IMG/VR virus record: IMGVR_UViG_3300017971_000630 | Location: 1 to 30,588 of that record | DNA: 30,588 nt | Origin: a virus | Reading direction: 5' to 3' (one strand) | Shown here: one piece after another, positions 4,046 to 30,588 of the stretch | Layout: each line of letters begins with the position of its first letter | Position numbering within the stretch: position 1 is the stretch's first letter | The notes under the pieces: generated by a model | The model's input: only the letters and a program-made list of their open reading frames with translations | Database searches by the model: none | What the model was told of the DNA's origin: nothing | Program-made: the position numbers and the translations under genes

Positions 4046-5479
4046 ATGTCTAGAAGAAATACAAAAAGAATCTTAGTTGAAACGGGTATTAGAAATATTC
4101 GTGAATTATCTAAGAGATACGATAAGGCGAAAATTTATTTCCACCAAGACTTAGATGGTGTTACTACAGCACTAGCTATGAAGAAGTATCTTGAGGACAA
4201 CGGTATACACGTTGTTGATGCTGAAATCATTCAATATGGTGATAAAGAGTTCGCAGTTAAAAAACCAATGGCACGTGGTGATATCATGCCAGTCCTAGTT
4301 GACTTCGCACATGGTAAACCAATGTTCGTTATTCATACGGACCACCACGACAAACAAGTAGGTGCAGAGAAAGACGCATCAAAATCATTTAGACACGCAC
4401 GTTCGAACGTTGAAACAATCTCTCAAATAGTCGCACCAAGTGATATATTCCCTGCTGATGATATTAGAATGATATCTACAGTAGATAGTGCTGACTTCGT
4501 TAGACAAGGTGTTACACCTGAAGATATTATGAGATATATCTTCGTATTAAACAAAGAGAGGGGTTTTAAGGCTAACAAACAGATTATGGCTTTAGTAACC
4601 AATAAATTATTGTTGGCTTACAAGAACAAACCTAATTTCCTAGAGAGGTTGGTATTAGAATCAACACCGTCATTGGTGAACATTTACCTTAACATTGTTA
4701 GGATAGCTAAAGAAGAAGGTTATGCAACACCTGACCTTATGACGGCTAACCTAGAGAAGTATATTAAATCACAAAAAGGTAGTGATAAGGTAAAATATCT
4801 TGAGGACCACGGAATCATTGCCCAATATGGTGGTGGAGCTTTATTTAAACCTGGTTCTTATGATAGATATGTACCATTCAAAAATTACCCTGACGCAAAC
4901 TTCTTAGTTATTGTATGGCCACTTGGTCTAATGCAATCTAGTTGTAACCCATTTAAGAAGGATAGGTCACTTAAGGGTGTTAACCTAGGTGAGATAGCAC
5001 AAGAGATGTTATTATCTTTTAAGGATGAATTAAAAAATTATTTGATTACCGTTGATACGGTAAAATATTTTGCTGAGAAACACAAGAGTTTTAACCCTGA
5101 TAGTGTTGGTTTCGGTTATTCTGATTTAATAGCCCTTTATGAGGATACTGATGAGGGTATTATCGGACTAGAACACCCACCAAAGGGAGCACCAGCAGAT
5201 TATACTACAGAGAGATGGCAAAACGCCATAAAGACAATTATGGATAAACCATATAAGATGTTGTCTGATAGAGAAAGAAAGGCCCTTAAAAAGTTAAAAC
5301 TAACGGGTTGGGATATGATTCAGGCTAATTCAGGGGGACATAAATGTATTACCAACGTAAGTGGTTTAATGTATTTCGGTAAGGATGGTGTTCCATTCTT
5401 AAAGAGGATGGCTAAAGAATTCATTGGTATACTGAAATCCAAGATTGATGAAAATACAGATATTTATAATCAGATATGA
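4046..5479 (+). CDS. DHH-family phosphoesterase (RecJ/NrnA-like)
   Basis: This 477-residue protein has the DHH superfamily motifs in order: FHQDLDGVTTA (32-42, with Asp35 and Asp37), VDFAHGKP (85-92, Asp86) and HTDHHD (97-102, the DHH motif). Near residue 430 SGGHKCITNVSG resembles the GGGH motif of the DHHA1 substrate-binding domain. Family members are Mn-dependent nucleases or phosphodiesterases acting on single-stranded DNA, short RNA or cyclic dinucleotides. The motifs fix the chemistry but not the substrate. Possible roles include processing of recombination intermediates, nanoRNA turnover or cleavage of signalling nucleotides. Its stop overlaps the start of the sigma-factor gene (ATGA), which implies translational coupling. 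Confidence 0.85.
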   Translation: MSRRNTKRILVETGIRNIRELSKRYDKAKIYFHQDLDGVTTALAMKKYLEDNGIHVVDAEIIQYGDKEFAVKKPMARGDIMPVLVDFAHGKPMFVIHTDHHDKQVGAEKDASKSFRHARSNVETISQIVAPSDIFPADDIRMISTVDSADFVRQGVTPEDIMRYIFVLNKERGFKANKQIMALVTNKLLLAYKNKPNFLERLVLESTPSLVNIYLNIVRIAKEEGYATPDLMTANLEKYIKSQKGSDKVKYLEDHGIIAQYGGGALFKPGSYDRYVPFKNYPDANFLVIVWPLGLMQSSCNPFKKDRSLKGVNLGEIAQEMLLSFKDELKNYLITVDTVKYFAEKHKSFNPDSVGFGYSDLIALYEDTDEGIIGLEHPPKGAPADYTTERWQNAIKTIMDKPYKMLSDRERKALKKLKLTGWDMIQANSGGHKCITNVSGLMYFGKDGVPFLKRMAKEFIGILKSKIDENTDIYNQI

Positions 5480-6036
5480 AAAGAAGTTTAATCAGACAAA
5501 TATTAAGAGAAGAGTTTCTAATGGAAACCGATGCTTCGGAAGCGTTGGTTGATTTCCAAACTATCTACAGTAAAATGTGGGATAAGATGGTTCGTAGTGT
5601 TTGTTTAAAATACACTAACGATATTAATAAAGCTGAAGACTTCTGTCAAAATGGTTTCATGAAGGTTTATAAGAACCTACATAAGTACGATGGTGGTGGT
5701 TCACTAGAAGGTTGGGTTAGACGTGTAATCCAAAACAACGTACTAGACGAACTAAGAAAGAAAAAAATCGAATATACAAGTGATGAACCTGATTGGGGTA
5801 GAGTTGATACTGATGACGAACCTTATGAAGAGAAGTACTCTGTAGAAATGATTGAGAGTGTTTTAACGGATTTGAGTCCGGCATACAAAACTGTATTCGA
5901 GATGTACTACTTTAGAGGTATGACTCACAGACAAATAGCCAAAAAGTTGGGTATTAGTGAGGGGACATCTAAATCCAACTTATCAAAGGCTAAAATTAAA
6001 GTAAGAAAACTTATCAAGGATAAGTTTAATGTTTAG
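5476..6036 (+). CDS. Sigma-70 family (ECF-like) RNA polymerase sigma factor with N-terminal tag
   Basis: A 186-residue two-domain sigma factor. Region 2 spans about residues 30-97, including the AEDFCQNGFMKVY core and GWVRRVIQNNVLDELRKKK. An acidic linker follows, then region 4 at 126-180 with the helix-turn-helix HRQIAKKLGISEGTSKSNLS. Such proteins bind host core polymerase and direct it to specific promoters. The size and lack of regions 1 and 3 match the ECF group. The extra N-terminus MKRSLIRQILREE is not part of the sigma fold and resembles the tag on five other proteins here. The start overlaps the DHH gene stop by four bases. It is a candidate for reading the ATATTTAT elements, and if the tag is a packaging signal it could be delivered with the DNA; both points are inference. 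Confidence 0.88.
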   Translation: MKRSLIRQILREEFLMETDASEALVDFQTIYSKMWDKMVRSVCLKYTNDINKAEDFCQNGFMKVYKNLHKYDGGGSLEGWVRRVIQNNVLDELRKKKIEYTSDEPDWGRVDTDDEPYEEKYSVEMIESVLTDLSPAYKTVFEMYYFRGMTHRQIAKKLGISEGTSKSNLSKAKIKVRKLIKDKFNV

Positions 6037-6708: not shown

Positions 6709-9174
6709 TTACTTTGCTTTGATTACTTCAACAAAAACGTTTTCTTTCTTGTATCCTACCTTGATGGTGTCACCTTCCTCAAGACCACCCTCCAACATCT
6801 TCTCAGCGATTGGGTCCTCGATGTACTTTTGGATAGCTCTGTTCAATGGACGAGCCCCATATCTTTCATCGTAACCAACATCTGCCAAGTAGTTCTTCAT
6901 GTTAGATGTAATCTTGACAGTGTACCCCAAGTCTTTCATTCGGTCAATTAAGTCCTTAAGTGGTAGGTTAACAATCTTCTTGATGTCCTCTCTCCCAAGA
7001 GACTCAAAGATGATAATATCGTCAAGACGATTCAAGAATTCAGGTGAGAATGCCTTCTTCACTGACTCTTGGATAACGTTTGCTCTAATTTCCTCTAGGT
7101 TCTCTACTTTAGCTCTAGTACCGAAACCAACTCCCGTACCAAAGTCTTGTAGTTTTCTAGCCCCTACGTTAGAGGTCATGATAATCAAGGTGTTCTTGAA
7201 ATTAATCTTTCTACCCAAACTATCTGTTAGGTGACCCTCATCCAACACCTGTAATAGGATGTTAAATACGTCAGGGTGTGCCTTTTCAATCTCATCCAAA
7301 AGAACTACAGAATATGGTTTTCTTCTAATTCTTTCAGTCAACTGACCACCTTCTTCATGTCCCACGTAACCAGGAGGTGAACCAATCAACTTAGAGATTG
7401 CGTGTTTCTCCATGTATTCTGACATGTCCACACGAATCATTGATTCTTCTGAACCAAATACTTCCTCTGCTAATTTCTTAGCCAAGTGGGTCTTACCAAC
7501 ACCTGTTGGTCCAAGGAAGATGAATGAACCAATTGGTTTGTTCTCATCCTTAATACCCATTCTATTTCTCTTGATAGCCTTGGTGATTTGTTCGATGGCG
7601 TTATCTTGACCAATAACCTTCTTCATCAATTCAATCTCCATACCAAGAAGTTTCTCAATCTCGGTAGTGGTAACCTTACTAACAGGGATTCCTGTCACCA
7701 TTGCCACAACTTTAGCCACCTCTTCTTCAGTAATTGACCTACGAGTTTCATCCAACTCTTTTCTCCAATTCTCATTAGCGACCTCCAAGTCTTCTTTTAA
7801 TTGTCTTTCTTCGTCACGAAGTCTAGCGGCGTCCTCGAATTGTTGTGCTCTCACAACTTCATGTTTCTTGGTATCGATTTCCGCTATCTTACCTTCCAAT
7901 TCAACAATATGTGCTGGTGGTTCGATGTGAACTTGTGCTCTCGCCCCAACCTCATCCATAATATCAATGGATTTATCAGGTTGTTCTCTATCGGTGATAT
8001 ATCTATCAGCCATTTTCACACACGCCTCGATAGCCTCTTGACTATAAGACACCTTGTGATGGTCCTCATACTTTGGTTTGATATTTTCCAAGATAACCAA
8101 CGTATCCTCAGTAGATGGTGGTTCAACCATTACAGTTTGGAATCTACGAGTTAATGCCCCATCTTTTTCGAAATTCTCACGGAACTCGTCTAAGGTTGTT
8201 GCTCCAATACATTGGATTTCACCTCTTGCTAACGCCGGTTTAAGGATGTTTGATGCGTCTAGAGAACCTGACGCGTTACCAGCACCTACCATGGTGTGGA
8301 TTTCGTCGATGAATAGAATCACATCATCAGTCTTTTCCAATTCCTGCATGATTCCCTTCAATCTTTCCTCGAATTGTCCTCTATACTTGGTACCTGCTAC
8401 CAATAGAGCCATATCCAAGGCTACAATTCTTTTGTCGAATAAGATACGTGGACATTTTCTCTCCACAATCTTTAGAGCCAAACCTTCGACGATAGCTGTC
8501 TTACCGACACCTGGCTCACCAATTAGGATAGGGTTGTTCTTCTTACGTCTACTCAATACCTGAGAAACACGTTCGATTTCATCACTCCTACCGATGATAG
8601 GGTCAATCACACCTTCTTCAGCCAACTTAGTGATATCTCTACCAAAGTTGTCTAATACAGGGGTACTTGATTTACCCTTAGTTTTTGAGGACTTAGCTCC
8701 TCCCATTTCATCATAATCACCTGTAATACTCATATTTATTTCGTTTTTAATTTGAGATAATGTTCTCTTAAATGTTTTATAAGTTATTCCTTGTTGTCCT
8801 AACAATCTAGTCCCATCTAAAGTTCTATTCTTTAAAATGGCTAACATTATATGTTCGACTCCAACGTATTCGTCACCCAATTTATCGGACTCTAATTCTG
8901 CCGTACTTACAACACTCTTTGAAACATCACTTAGTGGTATAAGTTTTTTCTTCATCTGAGGATTCTGTTCCGTTATCCGTATCTTACCCTCAACCCTTGA
9001 GATTAAGTCTTCGACATCAGACCCCATAACCCCCAAAACGTCGACAACATCATTTTCATCGTCTAGTATGGCGAGAAGAATGTGGTCGGGTTGTATTTTG
9101 TTAGCTCCTAATCGTAGGGACTCTTTGAACGAGTTCTTTAAAATTGTTCTAACCTTTGGTACAACTGGTTTCAT
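6709..9174 (-). CDS. clpC: ClpC AAA+ unfoldase, full length
   Basis: The 821 residues show the full class I Clp layout: a double Clp_N repeat (1-145); D1 ATPase with Walker A GEPGVGKT (219-226), Walker B VILFIDE (285-291) and LTRRF arginine finger (341-345); a short middle domain with a UVR-like segment (about 438-463); D2 with Walker A GPTGVGKT (555-562), Walker B VVLLDE (623-628) and sensor-2 GYDERYGARPL (767-777). The loop GVGFGT (681-686) carries the VGF tripeptide that ClpC-type enzymes use to dock on ClpP. The short middle domain and that loop separate it from ClpB. Since no clpP is seen here, host ClpP is the likely partner. Upstream on the minus strand a weak host-type box (TTG-N20-TAATATTG, 9214-9184) lies very close to the start. 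Confidence 0.95.
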   Translation of the reverse strand: MKPVVPKVRTILKNSFKESLRLGANKIQPDHILLAILDDENDVVDVLGVMGSDVEDLISRVEGKIRITEQNPQMKKKLIPLSDVSKSVVSTAELESDKLGDEYVGVEHIMLAILKNRTLDGTRLLGQQGITYKTFKRTLSQIKNEINMSITGDYDEMGGAKSSKTKGKSSTPVLDNFGRDITKLAEEGVIDPIIGRSDEIERVSQVLSRRKKNNPILIGEPGVGKTAIVEGLALKIVERKCPRILFDKRIVALDMALLVAGTKYRGQFEERLKGIMQELEKTDDVILFIDEIHTMVGAGNASGSLDASNILKPALARGEIQCIGATTLDEFRENFEKDGALTRRFQTVMVEPPSTEDTLVILENIKPKYEDHHKVSYSQEAIEACVKMADRYITDREQPDKSIDIMDEVGARAQVHIEPPAHIVELEGKIAEIDTKKHEVVRAQQFEDAARLRDEERQLKEDLEVANENWRKELDETRRSITEEEVAKVVAMVTGIPVSKVTTTEIEKLLGMEIELMKKVIGQDNAIEQITKAIKRNRMGIKDENKPIGSFIFLGPTGVGKTHLAKKLAEEVFGSEESMIRVDMSEYMEKHAISKLIGSPPGYVGHEEGGQLTERIRRKPYSVVLLDEIEKAHPDVFNILLQVLDEGHLTDSLGRKINFKNTLIIMTSNVGARKLQDFGTGVGFGTRAKVENLEEIRANVIQESVKKAFSPEFLNRLDDIIIFESLGREDIKKIVNLPLKDLIDRMKDLGYTVKITSNMKNYLADVGYDERYGARPLNRAIQKYIEDPIAEKMLEGGLEEGDTIKVGYKKENVFVEVIKAK

Positions 9175-9768: not shown

Positions 9769-10081
9769 TGTTATTGAGTGTTTGATAGATTCATCAAACA
9801 TTATTATGTCTGAGTATAACCAAAAGAATAAGTCTTTGGTCATCACCTTCAAAGCAGGGACACAATACAAATACTTTGATGTCCTACACAGAGACTACAT
9901 GAGGTTTGAAATCTCGGAAAGTCAAGGTTCGGTTTTCAACAAAACCATGAGAAAATATAAATACGAGAAATTAGATGCTATCGATGTAGCACCATTAAAA
10001 GAACAAATAGAAAATATTAAGAATGGAACAGTACAAAGACTTAGTGAAGAAAATACAGGAGGAGGGAGTACAGAAGGGTGA
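9737..10081 (+). CDS. KTSC domain protein, 114 aa
   Basis: Residues about 15-75 match the KTSC domain pattern: [35 protein letters not shown], then [20 protein letters not shown]. This small domain occurs alone or beside lysyl-tRNA synthetase-like and DNA-processing proteins in bacteria and phages; its function is unknown. A Gly/Ser/Thr/Glu-rich tail of about 15 residues ends the protein. It overlaps the gene before by 32 bases and thyA after by 59 bases, an unusually long overlap. The ThyA start is fixed by family similarity, so the overlap appears real. Confidence 0.75.
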
Positions 10082-10985
10082 TAGAACAGGTACAGGTACC
10101 AAATCTATCTTTGGACATCAAATGAGATTCAATCTTAATGATGGTTTCCCTTTGGTCACTCTGAAGAACACCTATTGGAAGGGTGTTGTACACGAACTCC
10201 TATGGTTTCTAAACGGTGACACTAACACCAAGTACCTAGTAGACAACAAAGTACATATTTGGGACGAATGGGCTGACGAGAATGGAGACCTAGGTCCTGT
10301 ATATGGTAAACAATGGGTTGATTGGGGTGGTTATTACTCTAGCGGTCATTGGAATTCTGAAACCAACGAAACAGGCAAACATTGGGATGGTATTAATCAG
10401 GTCCAAAATGTTATCGACACATTGAAGACTAACCCTGACTCACGTAGAATGATTGTCTCAGCTTGGAACGTGGGTGAGTTAGACCAAATGGCTTTAATGC
10501 CTTGTCACGCTTTCTTCCAATTCTATACAAGGGAATTAACACCATGGGAGAGAATGAAAATTTCTAAAGATTATGGTAATACTAACAATATTGAAGCTAA
10601 CTGGGATGTTAGTGAGGGGTTGATTGATTATATGTGTGATAAATGGGGTGTCCCTAAAAGAGCTGTATCACTACAACTATATCAAAGAAGTTGTGACACG
10701 TTTCTAGGATTACCGTTTAATATTGCATCATACTCATTGTTACTAATGATGGTTGCACAAACTGTTAACATGATTCCTGAGGATTTTGTATGGACAGGTG
10801 GTGATGTACATTTATACTCAAACCACATGGAACAAGTAGAACTTATGTTAGAAAGACAACCAAAGGTATTACCTTCCGTTAAATTAAACCCTGATATTGA
10901 TAATGTGTTTGATTTTACGTATGATGATATTGAATTGGTGGGGTATGACCCACACCCAACGATAAAAGCCCCTGTAGCAGTATAA
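10023..10985 (+). CDS. thyA: Thymidylate synthase ThyA
   Basis: ThyA methylates dUMP to dTMP using methylene-tetrahydrofolate, supplying thymidine for phage DNA. Family motifs are present: [10 protein letters not shown] start, GDRTGTGT (19-26), catalytic Cys161 in [20 protein letters not shown] (217-225), [12 protein letters not shown] and [11 protein letters not shown] (261-271). At 320 residues it exceeds the 264 of E. coli ThyA, mainly through an insertion at about 171-215 between the catalytic-Cys strand and LQLYQRS, plus a smaller one near 103-118. The start is chosen because it reproduces the canonical N-terminus, though it lies 59 bases inside the KTSC gene. It joins the deformylase gene through TAATG. 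Confidence 0.96.
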
Positions 10986-11419
10986 TGGAAATATTACAAG
11001 ACGGACATCCGATATTAAGAGAGATAGCTAAACCACTAGAATCCAATCTATATATTGACCTTTTAGTTGAACAAATGACTGAGGCAATGAGAGAGGCTGA
11101 TGGAGTTGGTTTAGCTGCACCACAAGTTGGTCACTCTATTCGTTTGTTCCTTGTATTGGATACTGAAACAGATAAAGTGAAAACATTCATTAATCCTGAA
11201 ATTATAAGGAAGAGTGAACAAACAGTTACGTTTGAAGAGGGGTGTCTAAGTGTGGCTGATGTGACAGGTGAAGTGAGTAGACCTGAAAGAATAATGGTAA
11301 GATATAAAGATTTAGACTTTATTGAACACACCGAAGTATTCGATGGTTATTTAGCTCGTATCATATTACATGAGTACGACCACTTAGAAGGAAAATTATT
11401 TACTGATTATTTAGTGTAG
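10985..11419 (+). CDS. def: Peptide deformylase
   Basis: A compact 144-residue metallo-enzyme that removes the formyl group from new N-terminal methionines. All three motifs are intact: GVGLAAPQVG (40-49), EGCLSV (85-90, metal ligand Cys87) and HEYDHLEG (129-136, ligands His129 and His133, catalytic Glu130). It lacks the C-terminal helix of many host enzymes, as is usual for short phage deformylases. The ATG overlaps the thyA stop (TAATG), implying coupled translation. Phage versions have been linked to keeping host or phage proteins turning over during infection. The 3' end overlaps the convergent gene by 13 bases. Confidence 0.96.
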   Translation: MEILQDGHPILREIAKPLESNLYIDLLVEQMTEAMREADGVGLAAPQVGHSIRLFLVLDTETDKVKTFINPEIIRKSEQTVTFEEGCLSVADVTGEVSRPERIMVRYKDLDFIEHTEVFDGYLARIILHEYDHLEGKLFTDYLV

Positions 11420-11733
11420 GCTTGAACGTCATAGATGTTTAGACAAGGAATGTCACCTGACTCACTTCTAGCCTTAGCAACGAATATAGGACCTTCTGTA
11501 TAAATTAGATACATTAGGTCTTTTTCTTGCTCTGTATATCCTAAGAATTTAAGTCTAACGTCTTCGAAACCGAAAGAAGATATCTCTTTAGTCATTAAGG
11601 ATTTCATATCCTCTCCTGTACATTCAATAGATTCTAGTTTAGATGCCATATCTTGAGCACTAACCTCATGGATTCTATTCTCTAATAATCTCTGTAATTG
11701 AGATTCGTTCACTATTATTGTCTTCTTACTCAT
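11407..11733 (-). CDS. Small protein with N-terminal LNE-type tag, 108 aa
   Basis: The N-terminus MSKKTIIVNESQLQRLLENR, followed by IHE, is a long-form version of the tag also found on the proteins starting at 27995 and 28428 (basic start, NE, amphipathic helix, then I-x-E). The remaining 85 residues have no recognised fold. They contain two Cys and a C-terminal segment (LMYLIYTEGPIFVAKARSES) that looks like a small beta-sheet domain. A near-match ATATTTAA element (minus strand 11745-11738) lies just upstream and overlaps the previous stop. Function unknown; a head-packaged protein is the inference from the tag. Confidence 0.65.
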   Translation of the reverse strand: MSKKTIIVNESQLQRLLENRIHEVSAQDMASKLESIECTGEDMKSLMTKEISSFGFEDVRLKFLGYTEQEKDLMYLIYTEGPIFVAKARSESGDIPCLNIYDVQAYTK

Positions 11734-11737
11734 ATTA

Positions 11738-12214
11738 TTAAATATCTAGTTCTGCGTCGTGTCTATTACCTGACTCATCATAATATATAATCTCTAAACT
11801 TTCGATATCACCATCGATACCCCAATCCCACTCATGTTCGATTAATCCCATATCTCTCGCTCTTTCACAATCTTGTTCACTTAATTCTAGTTCACCACAA
11901 TAATCTTCATAACCATATCTTGGGTCGACTTTCTTCAATAAGTTTATTGCGAACTCTAAATCATCCATGGTGTAAGTACGATAAGCGTGTACTCCGTATT
12001 GGTGTTTATTTTTAGAGTCCTCAGGGTTGATGAAGAACCATATATCGTTGTTTCTATACATGTCACCATCACCAAACATGAACTCTATCTTTATATTAAC
12101 AGCGTTTTTAGGTGAATTCAACTGTTTTTTCAATCTTAATCCAGGGATTCCTTGAATACCTTGAATCCAATCAAAATCGTTCTCTTTTAATATTTTACGA
12201 ATAATGTCTTTCAT
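11738..12214 (-). CDS. Hypothetical acidic protein with N-terminal IRKILKE tag, 158 aa
   Basis: It begins MKDIIRKILKEN, a short-form tag close to those of the sigma factor (SLIRQILREE) and the SprT-like protein (QIRNIVRE). The body is acidic and aromatic, with a Trp/Tyr-rich region (DIWFFINPEDSKNKHQYG, EHEWDWGIDGD). No catalytic motif was recognised. An ATATTTAT element lies ten bases upstream on the minus strand, back-to-back with the element for the divergent nucleotidyltransferase gene. It shares a minus-strand pair with the gene at 11407-11733, four bases apart. Function unknown. Confidence 0.65.
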   Translation of the reverse strand: MKDIIRKILKENDFDWIQGIQGIPGLRLKKQLNSPKNAVNIKIEFMFGDGDMYRNNDIWFFINPEDSKNKHQYGVHAYRTYTMDDLEFAINLLKKVDPRYGYEDYCGELELSEQDCERARDMGLIEHEWDWGIDGDIESLEIIYYDESGNRHDAELDI

Positions 12215-20987: not shown

Positions 20988-22898
20988 ATGGCTGAAAAGA
21001 AAGATAATTTAACAGTATTTCAGAAGATGTTTTACGTCTTCGGACAAGGTGGTGGACCAAAAACCAATAAAGCATATGATGCTAGGTACCAATTCACTAA
21101 CGATGATTTACTTGTTACAAAATCTAGAGAAACATACGAAAAGGAGAAACTACAACTCCAACAACAAAAATATCTAGAAGGACAGTGGGCGAAGGTAGAT
21201 AATGAACTTTACCAAAAAGCTGTTTACTATGAAACATCTAGATTGGCTTCATACATGGATTATGAAGCAATGGAATTCACACCTGAAATATCGGTGGCTT
21301 TAGATGTTATGTCGGAAGAATCGTGTACACTCAACGAACAAGGTGAGATTATTCAAATTTATTCAGATTCTTCACGTATCAAAAAAGTACTTAGGGATTT
21401 ATTTTACAATGTACTAGATGTTAATTCAAACCTACCAATGTGGGTTCGTAACACATGTAAGTACGGTGATAACTTCGTTTATCTAAAAATTCATCACCAA
21501 GAAGGGATTATTGGGGCTTCACAGTTAACTAACATTGAAATGGAGAGAACTGAAACAGGTTTATTTCCATTCCAAACACAAAACAAAGAAGCTAGTGCTG
21601 AGGAGATGAAGAAGAAAGAAGTTAAGTTCATGTGGAAGGACAAAAGTCTAGAATTTAACGCATGGGAAATAGCTCACTTCAGATTACTAGGTGATGATAG
21701 AAAACTTCCTTACGGTACATCAGTACTTGAGAAGGTAAGACGTATTTGGAAACAATTATTACTTGCTGAAGACGCGATGTTAGTTTACCGTGTAACTAGA
21801 GCACCTGAAAGAAGGGTATTCAAAGTTTACGTAGGTAATATTGACGATGATGATGTTGAGGCATATGTACAAAAAGTTGCTAACAAATTTAAGAGAACAC
21901 AACAAGCTGACCAACAAACAGGTCAGGTTGATATTAGATACAATACTCTAGCGGTAGACCAAGACTTCTTCGTACCTGTTAGGGATGTTAATGCTTCTAG
22001 TCCGATTGAAACGTTGGAAGGGGCTTCAAATCTAGACCAAATTGCTGATATCGAATTTATTCAAAGGAAAATGGTTACAGCACTTAGAGTACCAAAACCA
22101 TTCCTAGGTTTTGAGGATACTGTAGGTGAAGGTAAGAACTTGGCTTTGATGGATATTAGATTTGCTAGAACAATCAACAGAATACAACAAGCTATCATTC
22201 AAGAATTAAATAAGATAGCAATCATTCATTTATATATTCTAGGATTCCACGATGAACTAGATAATTTCAAGTTAATCCTTAATAACCCATCTACACAAGG
22301 TGAGATGTTAAAGGTTGAACAATGGAAAGAGAAAGTACTTCTTTACAAAGACCTTGTTTCAGCTATCGACGGTGGTATTGCTCCATCATCACATACATGG
22401 GCTAAGAAGGAAATCTTTAATTGGTCAGAGGATGAAATTAGACTTGACCTTGAACAACAAAGACTTGAAAGAGCTGCTGGTGCAGAACTTGAGAGGACTC
22501 CTGAAGTTATTAAGAAAACAGGATTCTTTGAGAAGGTTGATAAACTTTACGGTGAACTACCAATGGACCAAGGACCTGATATGGAAGAAGGTGAAGGTGC
22601 TGAAGGTGAAGGATTCGGCGGAGGTGAAGACTTCGGAGGAGGAGGATTCGGAGGAGGCGGTAGCCTTGACTTCGGAGGTGAAGAAGACTTCGGTGGTGAT
22701 GAGTTCGGCGGAGGTGAAGACTTCGGTGGAGGGGGTGAATTCGGTGAGAGTTTCAGAGGTGACGAAGACGTTATCGATAGACTATTAGTAGAAGGTAAGA
22801 AACGAAACGAAGACATCCTAGCCATGACCCAAGGTATTGATGACCTAATTAAAGAGGATGATGAAGATGTGGATGAAACCGACCTCTTAACCGAATAA
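20988..22898 (+). CDS. Portal vertex protein (T4 gp20-like) with DFGG-rich tail
   Basis: At 636 residues this matches the T4-type portal. Recognisable segments include VALDVMSEESCT, RVTRAPERRVFKVYVGNI (near 268-285), an aspartate-rich turn, and VRDVNASSPIETLEGASNL followed by KMVTALRVPKPFLGFED. The portal forms the dodecameric ring through which terminase packs DNA and to which the neck attaches. The C-terminus is unusual: residues about 527-590 are almost only Gly, Glu, Asp and Phe in DFGGG/EFGGG units, followed by a short ordinary helix. T4 gp20 has no such segment. A similar DFGG-rich stretch occurs in the protein at 13337. The gene is placed after terminase as in T4-like head modules. Confidence 0.93.
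   Translation: MAEKKDNLTVFQKMFYVFGQGGGPKTNKAYDARYQFTNDDLLVTKSRETYEKEKLQLQQQKYLEGQWAKVDNELYQKAVYYETSRLASYMDYEAMEFTPEISVALDVMSEESCTLNEQGEIIQIYSDSSRIKKVLRDLFYNVLDVNSNLPMWVRNTCKYGDNFVYLKIHHQEGIIGASQLTNIEMERTETGLFPFQTQNKEASAEEMKKKEVKFMWKDKSLEFNAWEIAHFRLLGDDRKLPYGTSVLEKVRRIWKQLLLAEDAMLVYRVTRAPERRVFKVYVGNIDDDDVEAYVQKVANKFKRTQQADQQTGQVDIRYNTLAVDQDFFVPVRDVNASSPIETLEGASNLDQIADIEFIQRKMVTALRVPKPFLGFEDTVGEGKNLALMDIRFARTINRIQQAIIQELNKIAIIHLYILGFHDELDNFKLILNNPSTQGEMLKVEQWKEKVLLYKDLVSAIDGGIAPSSHTWAKKEIFNWSEDEIRLDLEQQRLERAAGAELERTPEVIKKTGFFEKVDKLYGELPMDQGPDMEEGEGAEGEGFGGGEDFGGGGFGGGGSLDFGGEEDFGGDEFGGGEDFGGGGEFGESFRGDEDVIDRLLVEGKKRNEDILAMTQGIDDLIKEDDEDVDETDLLTE
22590..22745 (+). repeat. Low-complexity G-rich coding repeat in the portal gene
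   Basis: The sequence is built from short units such as GGCGGAGGTGAAGACTTCGG and GGAGGAGGATTCGG, encoding (E/G)DFGG and GFGGG repeats. It is much more G-rich than the surrounding DNA. It explains the Ser/Pro-rich antisense frame here, which is not a gene. Confidence 0.8.
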
Positions 22899-24656: not shown

Positions 24657-25799
24657 ATGAAAGTTTTTTTAGAGTACCTTTGGTTGGATGGGGAAGAAAC
24701 CCAAAAAGTCAGAGGTAAAACTAAAGTTGCAGACACGTCAGAATCGAGATGGGAAAAACACAATGGATTCAAGAACGTGATGAACTACCCTGATTGGTCG
24801 TATGATGGGAGTTCAACAAAACAAGCCGAATCGGGTAAAGGTAAAAATACTGACTGTATACTAAAACCTGTTTTCGTATGTGATGACCCCTTTAGAGGTA
24901 CACCACATAAATTAGTTCTTTGTGATGTGTATAACCCTAATGGGACACCACACAAAACAAATCAACGAATAAAGTTAAAGAATTTCTTGGATAATAACAA
25001 CCTTAAAGAAACCATTGATTGGGTAGGTGAAGGTAAAGTTGTTAGACAACTACATAAAAAGAAAGATTTACCTTGGTTCGGTTGGGAACAAGAATATACG
25101 TTAACCACAAAACCCAACTTTCAGGAGGGTGAGGGTCTACCACTAGGATTTAGACCAAATGAACAGCCTAGGGCACAGGGTGATTATTATTGTGGTATCG
25201 GTTCCGATAATGTTGTCGGCCGTAAGATAGTTGAGGAACACTTAGAAAAATGTGTCGAAGTAGGTCTAGACGTTTCAGGTATAAACGCTGAAGTACTACT
25301 TGGTCAATGGGAGTATCAGATAGGTCCCGTTACATCTTTAGATGGTTCAGACCAATTATGGATGTCTAGATACATCTTACATAGAATAGCAGAAAATCAT
25401 GGTGTAATTATCTCCTTCCATCCAAAACCTATTGAGGGTAATTGGAATGGTTCGGGATGTCACGTTAACTTCTCCAATAAAGAGATGAGGGAAGAGGGTG
25501 GTCTTGCTGTGATATTACAAGCTATGGATGGTCTTAGAGTAAACCATAAGGCTCATATCGACGTTTATGGTTTAGACAATGAAAAACGTTCTACAGGAGA
25601 GTTAGAAACAGCCGATATTAACAAGTTTAGTTTTGGTTATAGCACAAGAGATACTAGTGTAAGAATTCCTGTACAAACGAAGAATGAGGAGAAGGGTTAT
25701 TTTGAAGACAGAAGACCAGCATCTAACTGTGACCCTTACATGGTATCCCTACGTATGTTAGAGACCGTGTATAATGCTGTGGCAACGAGCCAACAGTAA
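24657..25799 (+). CDS. glnII: Glutamine synthetase type II
   Basis: The 380-residue length and motifs are those of the GSII (eukaryote-like) class rather than the 470-residue GSI. They are WSYDGSST (47-54), WFGWEQEYTL with metal/glutamate ligands Glu144 and Glu146, GINAEVLLGQWEYQIGP (208-224, Glu212 and Glu219), His255 in SFHPKP, GNWNGSGCHVNFS (261-273), RDTSVRIP (331-338) and YFEDRRPASNCDPY (348-361). Every recognised active-site element is present, so an active enzyme making glutamine from glutamate, ammonia and ATP is expected. Glutamine is the nitrogen donor for nucleotide synthesis, so the gene would support phage DNA production. It lies between two terminators as a metabolic insert in the head module. 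No clear host-type promoter was found in its 60-base leader. Confidence 0.95.
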   Translation: MKVFLEYLWLDGEETQKVRGKTKVADTSESRWEKHNGFKNVMNYPDWSYDGSSTKQAESGKGKNTDCILKPVFVCDDPFRGTPHKLVLCDVYNPNGTPHKTNQRIKLKNFLDNNNLKETIDWVGEGKVVRQLHKKKDLPWFGWEQEYTLTTKPNFQEGEGLPLGFRPNEQPRAQGDYYCGIGSDNVVGRKIVEEHLEKCVEVGLDVSGINAEVLLGQWEYQIGPVTSLDGSDQLWMSRYILHRIAENHGVIISFHPKPIEGNWNGSGCHVNFSNKEMREEGGLAVILQAMDGLRVNHKAHIDVYGLDNEKRSTGELETADINKFSFGYSTRDTSVRIPVQTKNEEKGYFEDRRPASNCDPYMVSLRMLETVYNAVATSQQ

Positions 25800-27251: not shown

Positions 27252-27995
27252 ATGAAAATACTTAAACCAGGACAAACAGGGCACGGATTTTTAGTTGAGT
27301 ATGATTCAGGGTATATTTCACCTGAATTGACTTGTGCTGACGGTGTCTGTTCAAATGAGAATATATTGAAAGAGTTTAAATCGGGTACTAACCTAGGAAG
27401 TGGTGATTTACCTGACGTTATAGAAGTATACGCCGTATTACAGAAATATGGTGTCGAAAACAAGAATGGTAGAATCTACCCAAAAGAAATACTAGAAAGA
27501 GAAGCTAAAAGATATCAAGAGTTTATTAACATGGGTACATCCCTTGGGGAACTTAATCACCCTGAATCATCTATTATTGATGCTGACCGTGTGTCACATA
27601 TGATTACTGAGATTTGGTGGGAAGGTAAAACTCTAATGGGTAAACTAGAATTAGATACTACACCAGGATATCATAAGATGGGTGTTATTTCTTCAGTTGG
27701 AGATAAGGTACTTAATATGATTAGAAAGGGTTGGACCGTTGGTATCTCATCAAGGGGTGTTGGTTCACTTAAACAAGAAGGTGGTAAAAATGTTGTACAA
27801 GATGATTTTGAATTAATCTGTTGGGATATTGTTACTTCACCATCTACACCTGGAGCTTGGATTTCTACTAGTGACGCAGACTTAAAACAATTTACAGAAA
27901 ATACAAGAAACAGAGGTACTATCTCTAATTCACCAACATATTTATCTGAAAGTGAAGAAAAGATAATGAATGGTCTTAAAAAATTCCTAAGCTAA
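27252..27995 (+). CDS. Prohead core protease (T4 gp21-like)
   Basis: The 247-residue protein carries the serine-protease signatures of the herpesvirus/T4 assembly protease group: GELNHPE (99-105, catalytic His103) and VGISSRGVGS (163-172, Ser166 or Ser167 as nucleophile). The flanks YGVENKNGRIYPKEIL and TEIWWEGKTLMGKLELD are also typical of the family. It sits inside the prohead, and in T4 the enzyme cuts scaffold, capsid and packaged internal proteins after [LI]-x-E. It is longer than T4 gp21 by an N-terminal part of about 50 residues that includes two Cys. The two genes immediately downstream encode proteins with an N-terminal tag ending in M-x-E, plausible substrates. The next gene overlaps through TAATG. 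Confidence 0.92.
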   Translation: MKILKPGQTGHGFLVEYDSGYISPELTCADGVCSNENILKEFKSGTNLGSGDLPDVIEVYAVLQKYGVENKNGRIYPKEILEREAKRYQEFINMGTSLGELNHPESSIIDADRVSHMITEIWWEGKTLMGKLELDTTPGYHKMGVISSVGDKVLNMIRKGWTVGISSRGVGSLKQEGGKNVVQDDFELICWDIVTSPSTPGAWISTSDADLKQFTENTRNRGTISNSPTYLSESEEKIMNGLKKFLS

Positions 27996-28360
27996 TGAAA
28001 AAGAGAGTAGTAAGATTAAACGAAAAGGATATTGAAAAGTTGGTAGGTAAAATCATGAATGAAAACTTACCAAGAAGAGAACGTGAAAGACACGCAAATC
28101 AATTTGCCAAAGCAGCGTTCGAACCTTATGATAGAGAACGTGAAATTATGAACGCGTTCGGTCCTTATAGAGATGATGTTCCAGCAAACGTTATTTCTTA
28201 CCTTAGAAAAAACCCAAGAAACTTTTTGAAAAGATTAACAGCTTTCTATGGTATGGATAAGATGTTAGATTTTATTGGGTACCAAGAACCTGAGATTGGT
28301 GAGGGGTACGATGATGAAATGGGTGACGACACTTGTAATGAGTGTGGCAGTATGTATTAA
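27995..28360 (+). CDS. Small tagged protein next to the prohead protease, 121 aa
   Basis: The N-terminus MKKRVVRLNEKDIEKLVGK followed by IMNE is nearly the same as that of the next gene's product (MKKRTIKLNESDLERLVER, IMTE), although the bodies differ. The remaining residues are basic and helical (ENLPRRERERHANQFAKAAF, VISYLRKNPRNFLKRLTAF) and end in an acidic tail with CNEC, half of a zinc-knuckle pattern. A basic body suits DNA association inside the head, as for T4 internal proteins. It is coupled to the protease gene through TAATG. Internal head protein is the inference; no direct family match. Confidence 0.7.
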   Translation: MKKRVVRLNEKDIEKLVGKIMNENLPRRERERHANQFAKAAFEPYDREREIMNAFGPYRDDVPANVISYLRKNPRNFLKRLTAFYGMDKMLDFIGYQEPEIGEGYDDEMGDDTCNECGSMY

Positions 28361-28387
28361 TATATACTATTAAATAAAAATATTAAA

Positions 28388-28427
28388 AGCGCGCTGCAGC
28401 AAGCAGCTAAGCAAAAAGCAAGCAGCA
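28388..28427 (+). repeat. GC-rich repeat and hairpin leader
   Basis: In very AT-rich surroundings this 40-base leader consists largely of GCA/AGC triplets. The ten-mer AGCAAGCAGC occurs twice (28398-28407 and 28417-28426, period 19). GCTGC (28393-28397) pairs with GCAGC (28403-28407). It ends directly at the start codon of the next gene and may form structure around its ribosome-binding region. Confidence 0.7.
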
Positions 28428-29258
28428 ATGAAAAAAAGAACTATTAAACTTAATGAATCTGATTTAGAGAGATTGGTTGAAAGAATCATGACCGAAGAAA
28501 CTGACTCCAACACTGAGGATGAATTTCTTAATATGTTAGTTGAGAATGTTATCAGAGAAGAGGAGGGTGAAGAAAAGAATGATGACCCTCAAGATGTTCA
28601 AAGGTTCTTAGACTTAGCAGATAAATATTTGTTCAACAGATATGGTAAGTACGCTGAGAAAATTAATACCCCTCAAGAGAAAGCTACATTAATTGCTGCA
28701 TTAGCACAAAAATGGGGTGTAGATGTAAATGACTTATCAAGAGTTAAAAGATACCTAACTAAAGAACAGAGAGAACAATTAGATGAAATCGGATACGATT
28801 CTCCTGAAGTATTTGCACAACATGCAGGTAGTCTAATGGGACAAGTTAGGTCTATGTTCAATAACCTAACCCAAATGGTTAAAGAAATGGAACAGAATTT
28901 AGATAAACCAAAAAGTGTAAATCTACAAACACTTAACAAACTTACAGGTGGAATTAATATGTTATCAATGTTATTGGAAAGAATGATTCCTGAAATGCCT
29001 GAAGATGATTTAGGTAGTGCTAGTGAAGAGTTTGTTGGGGTACTTAAATCATTCGAAAGAAGAATTAGAACCTTAGTAACAGCAGCAACTGCTTATTCCG
29101 ATAAAGACTTCAGTGAACAGTTAGAGAAATTCTTGGTTAAGTTCACAACTTCAATGATGAAGTATGGTAAAGTTATTCTAGATGTTGACAAAAGATTATA
29201 CCAAAGAGCTCAAGGACGTGGTCGTGGAGACTATGGTTCAGGGTATGATTTAAATTAA
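28428..29258 (+). CDS. Tagged helical protein in the head module, 276 aa
   Basis: It starts MKKRTIKLNESDLERLVER then IMTEE, the longest and clearest form of the shared N-terminal tag. An acidic stretch (20-55) follows, then a helical middle with FLDLADKYLFNRYGKYAEKI, then long helices (MLLERMIPEMPEDDLGSASEEF) to a basic, Gly/Arg-rich end (RAQGRGRGDYGSGYD). No enzymatic motif was found. Its place between the prohead protease and the scaffold-like gene suggests an internal head or core protein. The unusual GC-rich leader ends at its start codon, so translation may be controlled there. Confidence 0.7.
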   Translation: MKKRTIKLNESDLERLVERIMTEETDSNTEDEFLNMLVENVIREEEGEEKNDDPQDVQRFLDLADKYLFNRYGKYAEKINTPQEKATLIAALAQKWGVDVNDLSRVKRYLTKEQREQLDEIGYDSPEVFAQHAGSLMGQVRSMFNNLTQMVKEMEQNLDKPKSVNLQTLNKLTGGINMLSMLLERMIPEMPEDDLGSASEEFVGVLKSFERRIRTLVTAATAYSDKDFSEQLEKFLVKFTTSMMKYGKVILDVDKRLYQRAQGRGRGDYGSGYDLN

Positions 29259-29331: not shown

Positions 29332-29562
29332 ATGAATGACAGTGTAGTACAATTCTTCCTAGTTAAAGTTGAATTCGAAAGTATTAACGAAGCTAACGGA
29401 AGACCAAAGAAAATCAAAACACAATATCTTGTAGACGCTATGTCTTGTACTGAAGCAGAGGCTCGTACAACTAAGTATCTAAAAGATTCTGTATTGGATT
29501 ATGAAATTGTTTCGGCAGTTAAGAGTCCAATCGAGGATACTATTATGAGAGAAGAGGCTTAA
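29332..29562 (+). CDS. DUF4494 family protein, 76 aa
   Basis: The pattern FFLVKVEFESINEANGRPKK, then TQYLVDAMSCTEAEARTTKYL and DYEIVSAVKSPIEDTI, fits DUF4494, a small family typical of Bacteroidota genomes and their phages. Function is not known. It supports the host assignment. It follows a 73-base A/T-rich gap and overlaps the convergent peptidase gene by four bases. Confidence 0.8.
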   Translation: MNDSVVQFFLVKVEFESINEANGRPKKIKTQYLVDAMSCTEAEARTTKYLKDSVLDYEIVSAVKSPIEDTIMREEA

Positions 29563-30002
29563 TCCCTTCTTTCTATAGGAAGACCCATTTTCTCAGCTAA
29601 AGTATTGAACAGACCACTATGTTCTTTGTGGTCAGGTAAATCTTCACCTATTGCAGCATGGATTAACTCGTGTGTAATCACATCTTCGAGATAGTCCATG
29701 TTGTTTAGTGCTTTGGGTTTTATACCTAAAACACCATTATCACCATTATGGTCAGGGTGAGAAAACCCCCCAATTTTACCATCTTTTATGTTTGGGTCGA
29801 GTTTTACCTCTATTTTTGGTAGGTATAAGTCCTCTCCTGTGACTTCTAAATACGCTTGGCTTAACTTTTTTTCCACTTTTTTTACTAGATGTTTTAACGT
29901 CTCAATCTCCGTTCCATATTCTTCATATATGGTAAAACCTCCGTTTTTTGGTGAATTTCCAAGATATTCACGAACTATATTTCTTATTTGGTCTCTCATC
30001 AT
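29559..30002 (-). CDS. SprT-like zinc metallopeptidase with N-terminal tag
   Basis: The 147-residue protein contains VITHELIHAAIGED (108-121), an HExxH zinc site with His111, Glu112 and His115, and a further His in DHKEHSGLF (His125 or His128) as third ligand. This is the arrangement of SprT / Spartan-type peptidases, some of which degrade DNA-bound or crosslinked proteins. It is a minimal catalytic domain without a DNA-binding C-terminus. The N-terminus MMRDQIRNIVRE is a short-form version of the shared tag and is separated from the catalytic domain by a linker. If the tag targets the head, this would be a packaged protease. An ATATTTAT element lies three bases upstream on the minus strand. 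Confidence 0.78.
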   Translation of the reverse strand: MMRDQIRNIVREYLGNSPKNGGFTIYEEYGTEIETLKHLVKKVEKKLSQAYLEVTGEDLYLPKIEVKLDPNIKDGKIGGFSHPDHNGDNGVLGIKPKALNNMDYLEDVITHELIHAAIGEDLPDHKEHSGLFNTLAEKMGLPIERRD

Positions 30003-30005
30003 ACT

Positions 30006-30013
30006 ATAAATAT
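30006..30013 (-). promoter_or_regulatory. ATATTTAT element before the SprT-like gene
   Basis: On the minus strand GGATATTTATAGT precedes the ATG at 30002 by three bases, closer than in most other copies. Confidence 0.35.
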
Positions 30014-30142: not shown

Positions 30143-30588
30143 ATGGCTCAAAAAGGAAAGTCTATTATCGACAAAGCTCTTCTAGAAGCGGAAGAAATTG
30201 ATAAAGCTTTTGAGGCCAACGCGAAAGAAATACTGTCCCGTTCAATGGGTTCAGAAATTGAAGAAATGGTAAAGGAATCTCTAGAAGGTTCGATGGCTCT
30301 TAATGAAGACGATGACGATGTAGAATTAGAGGTGTCAGACGAAATTGACATCGACGCCGACGATGACGGCGAAGTAGAACTAGATTTGGAGTTGGGGGAT
30401 GACCTTGACGACGAAGATAACGACTTAGATGTTGATGATGAAGCCGACTTAGATATGGATGACGAAGTTGAGACTATCGATTTAACAGGTGCTGATGACA
30501 TGGATGTTATCACAGTTTTTAAGAAAATGGGACCTGAAGATGAAATCGAAGTAGTTCAAGACGGAGACTCAATCGATATTAAGGACAC
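30143..30588 (+). CDS. Acidic scaffold-like protein, 3' end outside the window
   Basis: The frame starts MAQKGKSIIDKALLEAEEID after an A-rich leader and is still open at the last base, giving 148 visible residues. The first 55 are helical. They are followed by an extreme Asp/Glu stretch (about 56-112) with repeating D-L-D and D-D-E units, then a turn to ordinary sequence (VITVFKKMGPEDEIEVVQDG). In T4 the gene after the prohead protease encodes the major scaffold gp22, also acidic and helical, so a scaffold or core role is likely by order and composition. No direct similarity was recognised. The frame on the opposite strand is a Ser-rich shadow of this acidic gene. Confidence 0.75.
   Translation, partial: MAQKGKSIIDKALLEAEEIDKAFEANAKEILSRSMGSEIEEMVKESLEGSMALNEDDDDVELEVSDEIDIDADDDGEVELDLELGDDLDDEDNDLDVDDEADLDMDDEVETIDLTGADDMDVITVFKKMGPEDEIEVVQDGDSIDIKD

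Follow-up and report, generated by a model that had tools for sequence, protein, structure and literature searches.

In the internal protein IPIII of phage T4, residues 4 and 7 govern targeting and residues 8 and 10 govern processing, and an Asp at position 10 stops processing but not targeting (PMC9026906). Within the T4 sequence MKTYQEFIAE, residues 4, 7, 8 and 10 correspond to P7, P4, P3 and P1, respectively. The head (ejection) proteins of phiKZ and SPN3US have propeptides that are cut after A-x-E or S-x-E; several of those in SPN3US exceed 100 residues, and in the text consulted a shared N-terminus is noted only for the paralogues gp53 and gp54 (PMC5694885). For phage P1 DarB, the N-terminal 30 residues are enough to bring a reporter to the capsid (PMC9024508). 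Leaders ending in hydrophobic-x-Glu are also shared by several proteins in each of two phages with an S77-type protease, immuto (MENFDLKKFLVENKLT...) and P-SSM2 (MKSFxQFLxE). In Flavobacterium phage immuto (MW353175, host Flavobacterium sp. LMO8; L135, L136 and L138), two further leaders, MENFDLKKFLVENKLTxNSKLxE and MKKQILSEQFxRMQxLAGIITES, each recur on several proteins.

Here we describe an N-terminal tag encoded in a 30,588-nucleotide stretch of viral DNA (IMG/VR record IMGVR_UViG_3300017971_000630; hereafter the window) and in related phages (the clade). We consider it to be a capsid-targeting leader of the T4 kind, carrying a predicted cargo wider than that of T4, at a probability of roughly 0.83; location in the virion, docking, cleavage and injection are inferred. 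Like the capsid-targeting peptides of T4 IPII and IPIII, the tag has hydrophobic residues at P7, P4 and P3 and Glu at P1. In T4 and the clade alike a short leader sits on differing bodies, the protease belongs to the same family, and the site also occurs in capsid and core proteins. The Glu is residue 10 in T4 and mostly residue 9-12 in the clade (69/86 tagged proteins). There is no identity beyond the pattern, the clade has a long two-part form, and the tag is found on tens of proteins as opposed to a few in T4, with a predicted cargo that includes recognisable regulators and enzymes. The likeness to phiKZ and SPN3US lies in the bulk loading of many different head proteins and in their cleavage after Glu by a protease related to gp21, but SPN3US differs in its long propeptides and, as far as the available parts of the source go, in having the noted shared N-terminus on paralogues only. 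The P1 signal was described for DarB and resembles the proposed capsid-targeting leader in being N-terminal, with no relation between the two shown. The leaders of immuto and P-SSM2 differ from the tag in sequence and occur on fewer proteins.

The features of the window are listed below, with a slash marking each presumed cut point.

4046 to 5479, plus strand: DHH-like protein (the DHH match, at E=0.003, is weak and misses the cut-off), with leader MSRRNTKRILVE/TG at 4046 to 4081.
5459 to 5467, plus strand: putative late-type promoter motif GATATTTAT, preceding the sigma gene.
5476 to 6036, plus strand: sigma-70-type factor (Sigma70_r2, 1.3e-14), with short tag MKRSLIRQILRE at 5476 to 5511, a second site FLME/T and GATATTTAT just upstream.
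11407 to 11733, minus strand: 108-aa protein, with degenerate long-form tag MSKKTIIVNESQLQRLLENRIHE at 11665 to 11733 (0.0 bits).
11738 to 12214, minus strand: protein with short tag MKDIIRKILKE at 12182 to 12214 (11.7 bits), then NDFDW, and GATATTTAT 18 bases upstream.
20988 to 22898, plus strand: portal protein of the T4 gp20 type (PF07230, E=4.8e-73).
27252 to 27995, plus strand: prohead core protease of the gp21 / peptidase S77 type (PF03420, E=9.7e-29; T4 gp21 structure 5jbl, E=7e-21).
27995 to 28360, plus strand: small protein, with long-form tag MKKRVVRLNEKDIEKLVGKIMNEN at 27995 to 28066 (47.1 bits).
28428 to 29258, plus strand: 276-aa protein, with long-form tag MKKRTIKLNESDLERLVERIMTEE at 28428 to 28499 (48.9 bits); orthologues tagged.
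29559 to 30002, minus strand: SprT-like peptidase (PF10263, E=0.0011, below cut-off; phrog_6361, 1e-8), with short tag MMRDQIRNIVRE at 29967 to 30002 and a promoter motif at 30013 (minus).
30143 to 30588, continuing past the window, plus strand: start of an acidic scaffold-like protein (gp22 position), with SIIDKALLE/A near its start.
4022, 12232 (minus), 13050, 17704, 20948, 27229 and 30013 (minus): copies of the 8-mer ATATTTAT.

No PDB entry matched the 4046 protein. In relatives, N-termini like that of the 30143 frame are found directly ahead of the capsid gene, and this acidic frame is likely the scaffold gene; 28428 had been considered for that role and was dropped, as relatives show a better fit for the acidic gene preceding the capsid gene. 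The window also has a glutamine synthetase-like gene among the head genes, downstream of portal and upstream of protease (24657-25799, plus), a ClpB-like AAA ATPase gene (6709-9174, minus) and a polypeptide deformylase gene (10985-11419, plus).

To define the tag, we located tag-bearing stretches with degenerate DNA patterns, the strict long-tag version of which matched just 20 stretches among 2.9 million viral contigs scanned, and we took 80 loci that each encode a relative of the window protease. A long-tag profile was built from 61 distinct tags from the protease-relative loci and four long contigs, giving [VI][KR]L[NT]E[SN]D[IL]E[KR]LV[KQ][KR]I[IM][KRN]E; both Glu are invariant, although the search pattern demanded them. 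The short form, M-x(1-4)-[LI][IV][KR][KR]I[IL]KE, is the C-terminal half of the long form. A preliminary description of this DNA had distinguished a long and a short form of the tag; we regard them as one signal.

The same description had named six tagged open reading frames, starting at 5476, 27995, 28428 and, on the minus strand, 11733, 12214 and 30002, and all six are present with those starts. The 27995 and 28428 tags score 47 and 49 bits on the long profile (internal-segment maximum 6.7), and the 11733 gene scores 0.0 (null 99.9% quantile -12). The short profile gives 11.7 for 12214, 7.4 for sigma and -1.6 for SprT (null 99% quantile 1.2). Judged by sequence score alone, the long form is certain and 12214 and sigma are good, with SprT and 11733 weak when taken singly. 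We accept these last two on the evidence of their orthologues: SprT orthologues begin MRSLIKKVLSE, MKESIKKILRE and MNDFLKKIIKE, and those of 11733, whose tags are clearer, begin MKKVIKITESQLERLTERRVKE and MKKIIRLTESQMAKLTEVRINE. SprT orthologue N-termini are variable, yet most keep a hydrophobic-x-Glu leader; in two 11733 orthologues Asp replaces Glu at the cut site. For 12214, locus L162 has a syntenic tagged pair. The 27995 orthologues carry the tag, and several of them also have a further site, [IV][NQ]E/[AG]LPRRE. All three sigma orthologues found are likewise tagged, the G003 copy starting MEKLIKKILKEELLKEN (18.9 bits); a scan with the window sigma factor recovered one additional relative. 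The original list of six was incomplete, since the 4046 gene (ILVE/TG) is also a member.

A search of relatives, with the attached domains listed, found the tag to be far commoner than the window suggests. The long form or its C-terminal half occurs on 7-28 proteins in each of the four long contigs, whose completeness as genomes is not proven. Contigs of 380, 318, 210 and 130 kb have 24, 23, 22 and 7 short-form matches at 8 bits or more, where the internal segments of their proteins would predict about 0, 1, 0 and 0. Tag matches numbered 26, 24, 26 and 7 in the four contigs versus 0-1 per phage in T4, PTm1, crAss001, phage K, part of phage G, P-SSM2, CP220, Mel-JY01 and immuto. Of the 605 non-redundant genes lying no more than 10 kb from a close protease relative, 104 carry the tag. 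Profile matches include false ones, such as thymidylate synthase (10023-10985, plus; 10.7 on the short profile). A text search of the literature for the tag strings found no paper, and a tblastn search with the tag alone found no match among isolated phages, a null that is uninformative because low-complexity filtering was on. We also observed a second motif, [DEN][FLWI][DENGS]W, no more than 16 residues past the tag in 31/86 tagged proteins and at a like position in 15/1129 untagged ones; it occurs in the window (12181-12167, minus) and in contigs G001, G002, G003 and G009.

With their N-termini removed, the 86 tagged proteins fall into 59 body clusters, which bears out the earlier claim that the bodies are unrelated. 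Recognisable bodies include the sigma factor, the SprT-like peptidase, PolyA_pol head (nucleotidyltransferase) domains, a lysozyme domain, GP88 and L5 gp82.

Support for a cut after Glu comes from the capsid protein and the 4046 family. In an alignment of the clade's major capsid proteins, [LF][IL][NST]E/[TSA] is conserved just ahead of the mature region, and we infer by analogy with T4 that this is the cut site, no N-terminus having been sequenced. Orthologues of 4046 share 54-77% identity, vary freely over their first 6-15 residues, and have leaders that stop exactly at the start of the conserved body. Each of the 41 leaders parsed carries Glu at P1, one of L, I or V at both P3 and P4, and S, G or T at P1'; they are not independent events because they are related by descent, and an apparent 337-residue leader, a parsing error, was left out of the 41. 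Leaderless orthologues, three from IMG/VR and the G001 copy, begin M-GGIRN at the same point, with stops upstream. In G002 (~108940-109110) the orthologue is seemingly frame-shifted near its start, with a leader MIISEKIFEKILIE/SG in the other frame. The preliminary description cautioned that the residue after the Glu is not the Ala or Gly favoured in T4. This is answered in part: the capsid protein and 4046 orthologues have S, G, T or A there, and the tag's own Glu is mostly followed by E or D. Given the acidic residue, cutting at IIKE/E may be slow or absent. A second hydrophobic-hydrophobic-x-Glu site followed by S/G/T/A lies no more than 14 residues away in 18 of the 86 tagged proteins, and in some tagged proteins the site used may be this downstream one.

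The gp21-like protease said to lie directly ahead of two tagged genes is a firm assignment (100.7 bits against the S77 family, cut-off 27), and a PF03420 protease is encoded in the window and all four long contigs. Tag-bearing contigs without one are fragments of 7-58 kb, most of which also lack a portal match. Generic N-terminal hydrophobic-hydrophobic-x-Glu sites are enriched 2.2-3.8 fold in the clade, 2.8-fold in immuto (p=2e-7), 1.7-fold in T4 (p=0.004) and 1.8-fold in P-SSM2 (p=0.012); applied to T4, this filter picks out IpII, IpIII, gp68, gp21, gp22 and gp24. No such enrichment was found in crAss001, phage K or part of phage G (0.7-1.1 fold), which are AT-rich and lack a gp21-type protease, nor was it significant in the S77 phages PTm1, CP220 and Mel-JY01. 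The proposed co-occurrence is supported by the site enrichment in T4, P-SSM2 and immuto and its absence in the three protease-less phages, but three S77 phages are without significant enrichment, so an S77 protease does not imply a large cargo. The p-values are not corrected for 13 genomes, and protease-less controls are few. A tag common in phages lacking such a protease would have counted against the proposal; the three give 0-1 matches. Judged by the excess over background, the three longest contigs would each have ~35-40 proteins of this kind, as an estimate and not a count.

Tagged genes share a putative promoter motif with head and tail genes. The top enriched 8-mer upstream of tagged genes is ATATTTAT, and in the window the motif precedes 4046, sigma, 12214, SprT, protease, portal and terminase. 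A GATATTTAT-like motif lies 10-45 bases ahead of head, tail and tagged genes in the window and in G001-G003 and G009. All four contigs have it ahead of the terminase, portal, sheath, neck and tail-completion genes, and three of the four ahead of the protease gene. The capsid gene is an exception, with a match just inside the gene start in 3/4. The motif is missing before thymidylate synthase, DnaB, RecA, exonuclease and PhoH; ahead of one RNR gene it occurs at -6. It is directly upstream of 39/86 tagged and 224/1140 untagged genes (p=2e-7), and at the operon level the counts are 71/86 and 601/1140 (p=2e-8). We infer that it is probably the late promoter of the clade, a label that rests on the kinds of genes it precedes. 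The tagged sigma was considered as the late sigma factor and rejected, as G001, G002 and G009 share the motif without a sigma match.

Several other explanations of the tag were weighed. Lysine-rich starts could look alike by chance in a genome of ~30% GC, where Lys and Ile codons are abundant, but we discount this almost entirely: internal segments of the same proteins yield 0-1 matches, and phage K and part of phage G, likewise at 30% GC, yield none. The nine-phage comparison rules out base composition as the source of the tag. Because many tagged genes have the promoter motif just upstream, the shared segment might instead reflect an element acting in DNA or RNA (a promoter, ribosome site or recombination hotspot) or recent copying of one gene start. 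This is very improbable, since identical peptides differ in their codons as often as chance predicts (codon identity inside tags is 0.54-0.65, with 0.56-0.61 expected from codon usage). Sharing of amino acids with codon sharing at the chance rate indicates selection on the peptide rather than copied DNA. DNA-level copying is ruled out by this codon test, and gene duplication by the 59 body clusters.

The segment appears amphipathic with a basic start, as would a localisation helix unrelated to the head, binding a membrane or replication site for example, with the Glu as part of the helix. We judge this improbable: some orthologues are leaderless and start exactly at the cut point, the capsid protein has the same site, tagged genes use the head-gene promoter motif, and only 2/86 tagged proteins are membrane-like compared to 121/1140 untagged (p=0.009). 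Harder to set aside is the idea that the tag does take proteins into the prohead core, where they are cut, but that these are only structural or scaffold parts, kept or degraded, with nothing useful injected. The long-form genes do cluster near the protease and capsid genes; nevertheless we think this unlikely, as the bodies include a sigma factor, nucleotidyltransferase (PolyA_pol), lysozyme domain and SprT-like peptidase, many tagged genes are 50-200 kb away from head genes, and 4046-family leaders end just ahead of an intact body.

We favor a T4-like prohead-targeting and cleavage leader, a reading already advanced in the preliminary description, and one that fits every computational test available: specificity, the capsid site, a detachable leader, the late-type promoter and the S77 association. 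We hypothesize that late-made proteins carrying the amphipathic N-terminal segment dock on the prohead core during head assembly, and that the gp21-type protease, whose gene neighbours those of the core, would cut after the Glu of the hydrophobic-hydrophobic-x-Glu site, so that the mature protein stays in the head alongside the DNA. The long-form proteins, mostly encoded near head genes, would then be likely core proteins, and the scattered short-form proteins, including the sigma factor, SprT-like peptidase and DHH-like protein, likely cargo injected with the genome. We found no virion proteomics for any tagged phage. More tentatively, and with real doubt, we speculate that perhaps 25-40 different proteins per genome are loaded into the head via this one label, in some of these phages with a ready-made sigma factor among them, so that the injected set can redirect host transcription and defence ahead of any phage gene expression.

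If the capsid-targeting reading is true, head contents would be predictable from sequence, and in S77 phages any late gene with a leader ending in hydrophobic-hydrophobic-x-Glu would be flagged as coding for cargo. A packaged sigma factor is predicted, for which we found no precedent in the literature searched. Should the mechanism hold in immuto, MENFDLKKFLVEN-type proteins are predicted in its virions, with new N-termini following a hydrophobic-x-Glu site. The leaders would, in addition, be candidate tools for packing phage heads with proteins of choice. For uncultured phages, the tag would provide a candidate list of injected proteins, mostly of unknown function and possibly aimed at host defence.
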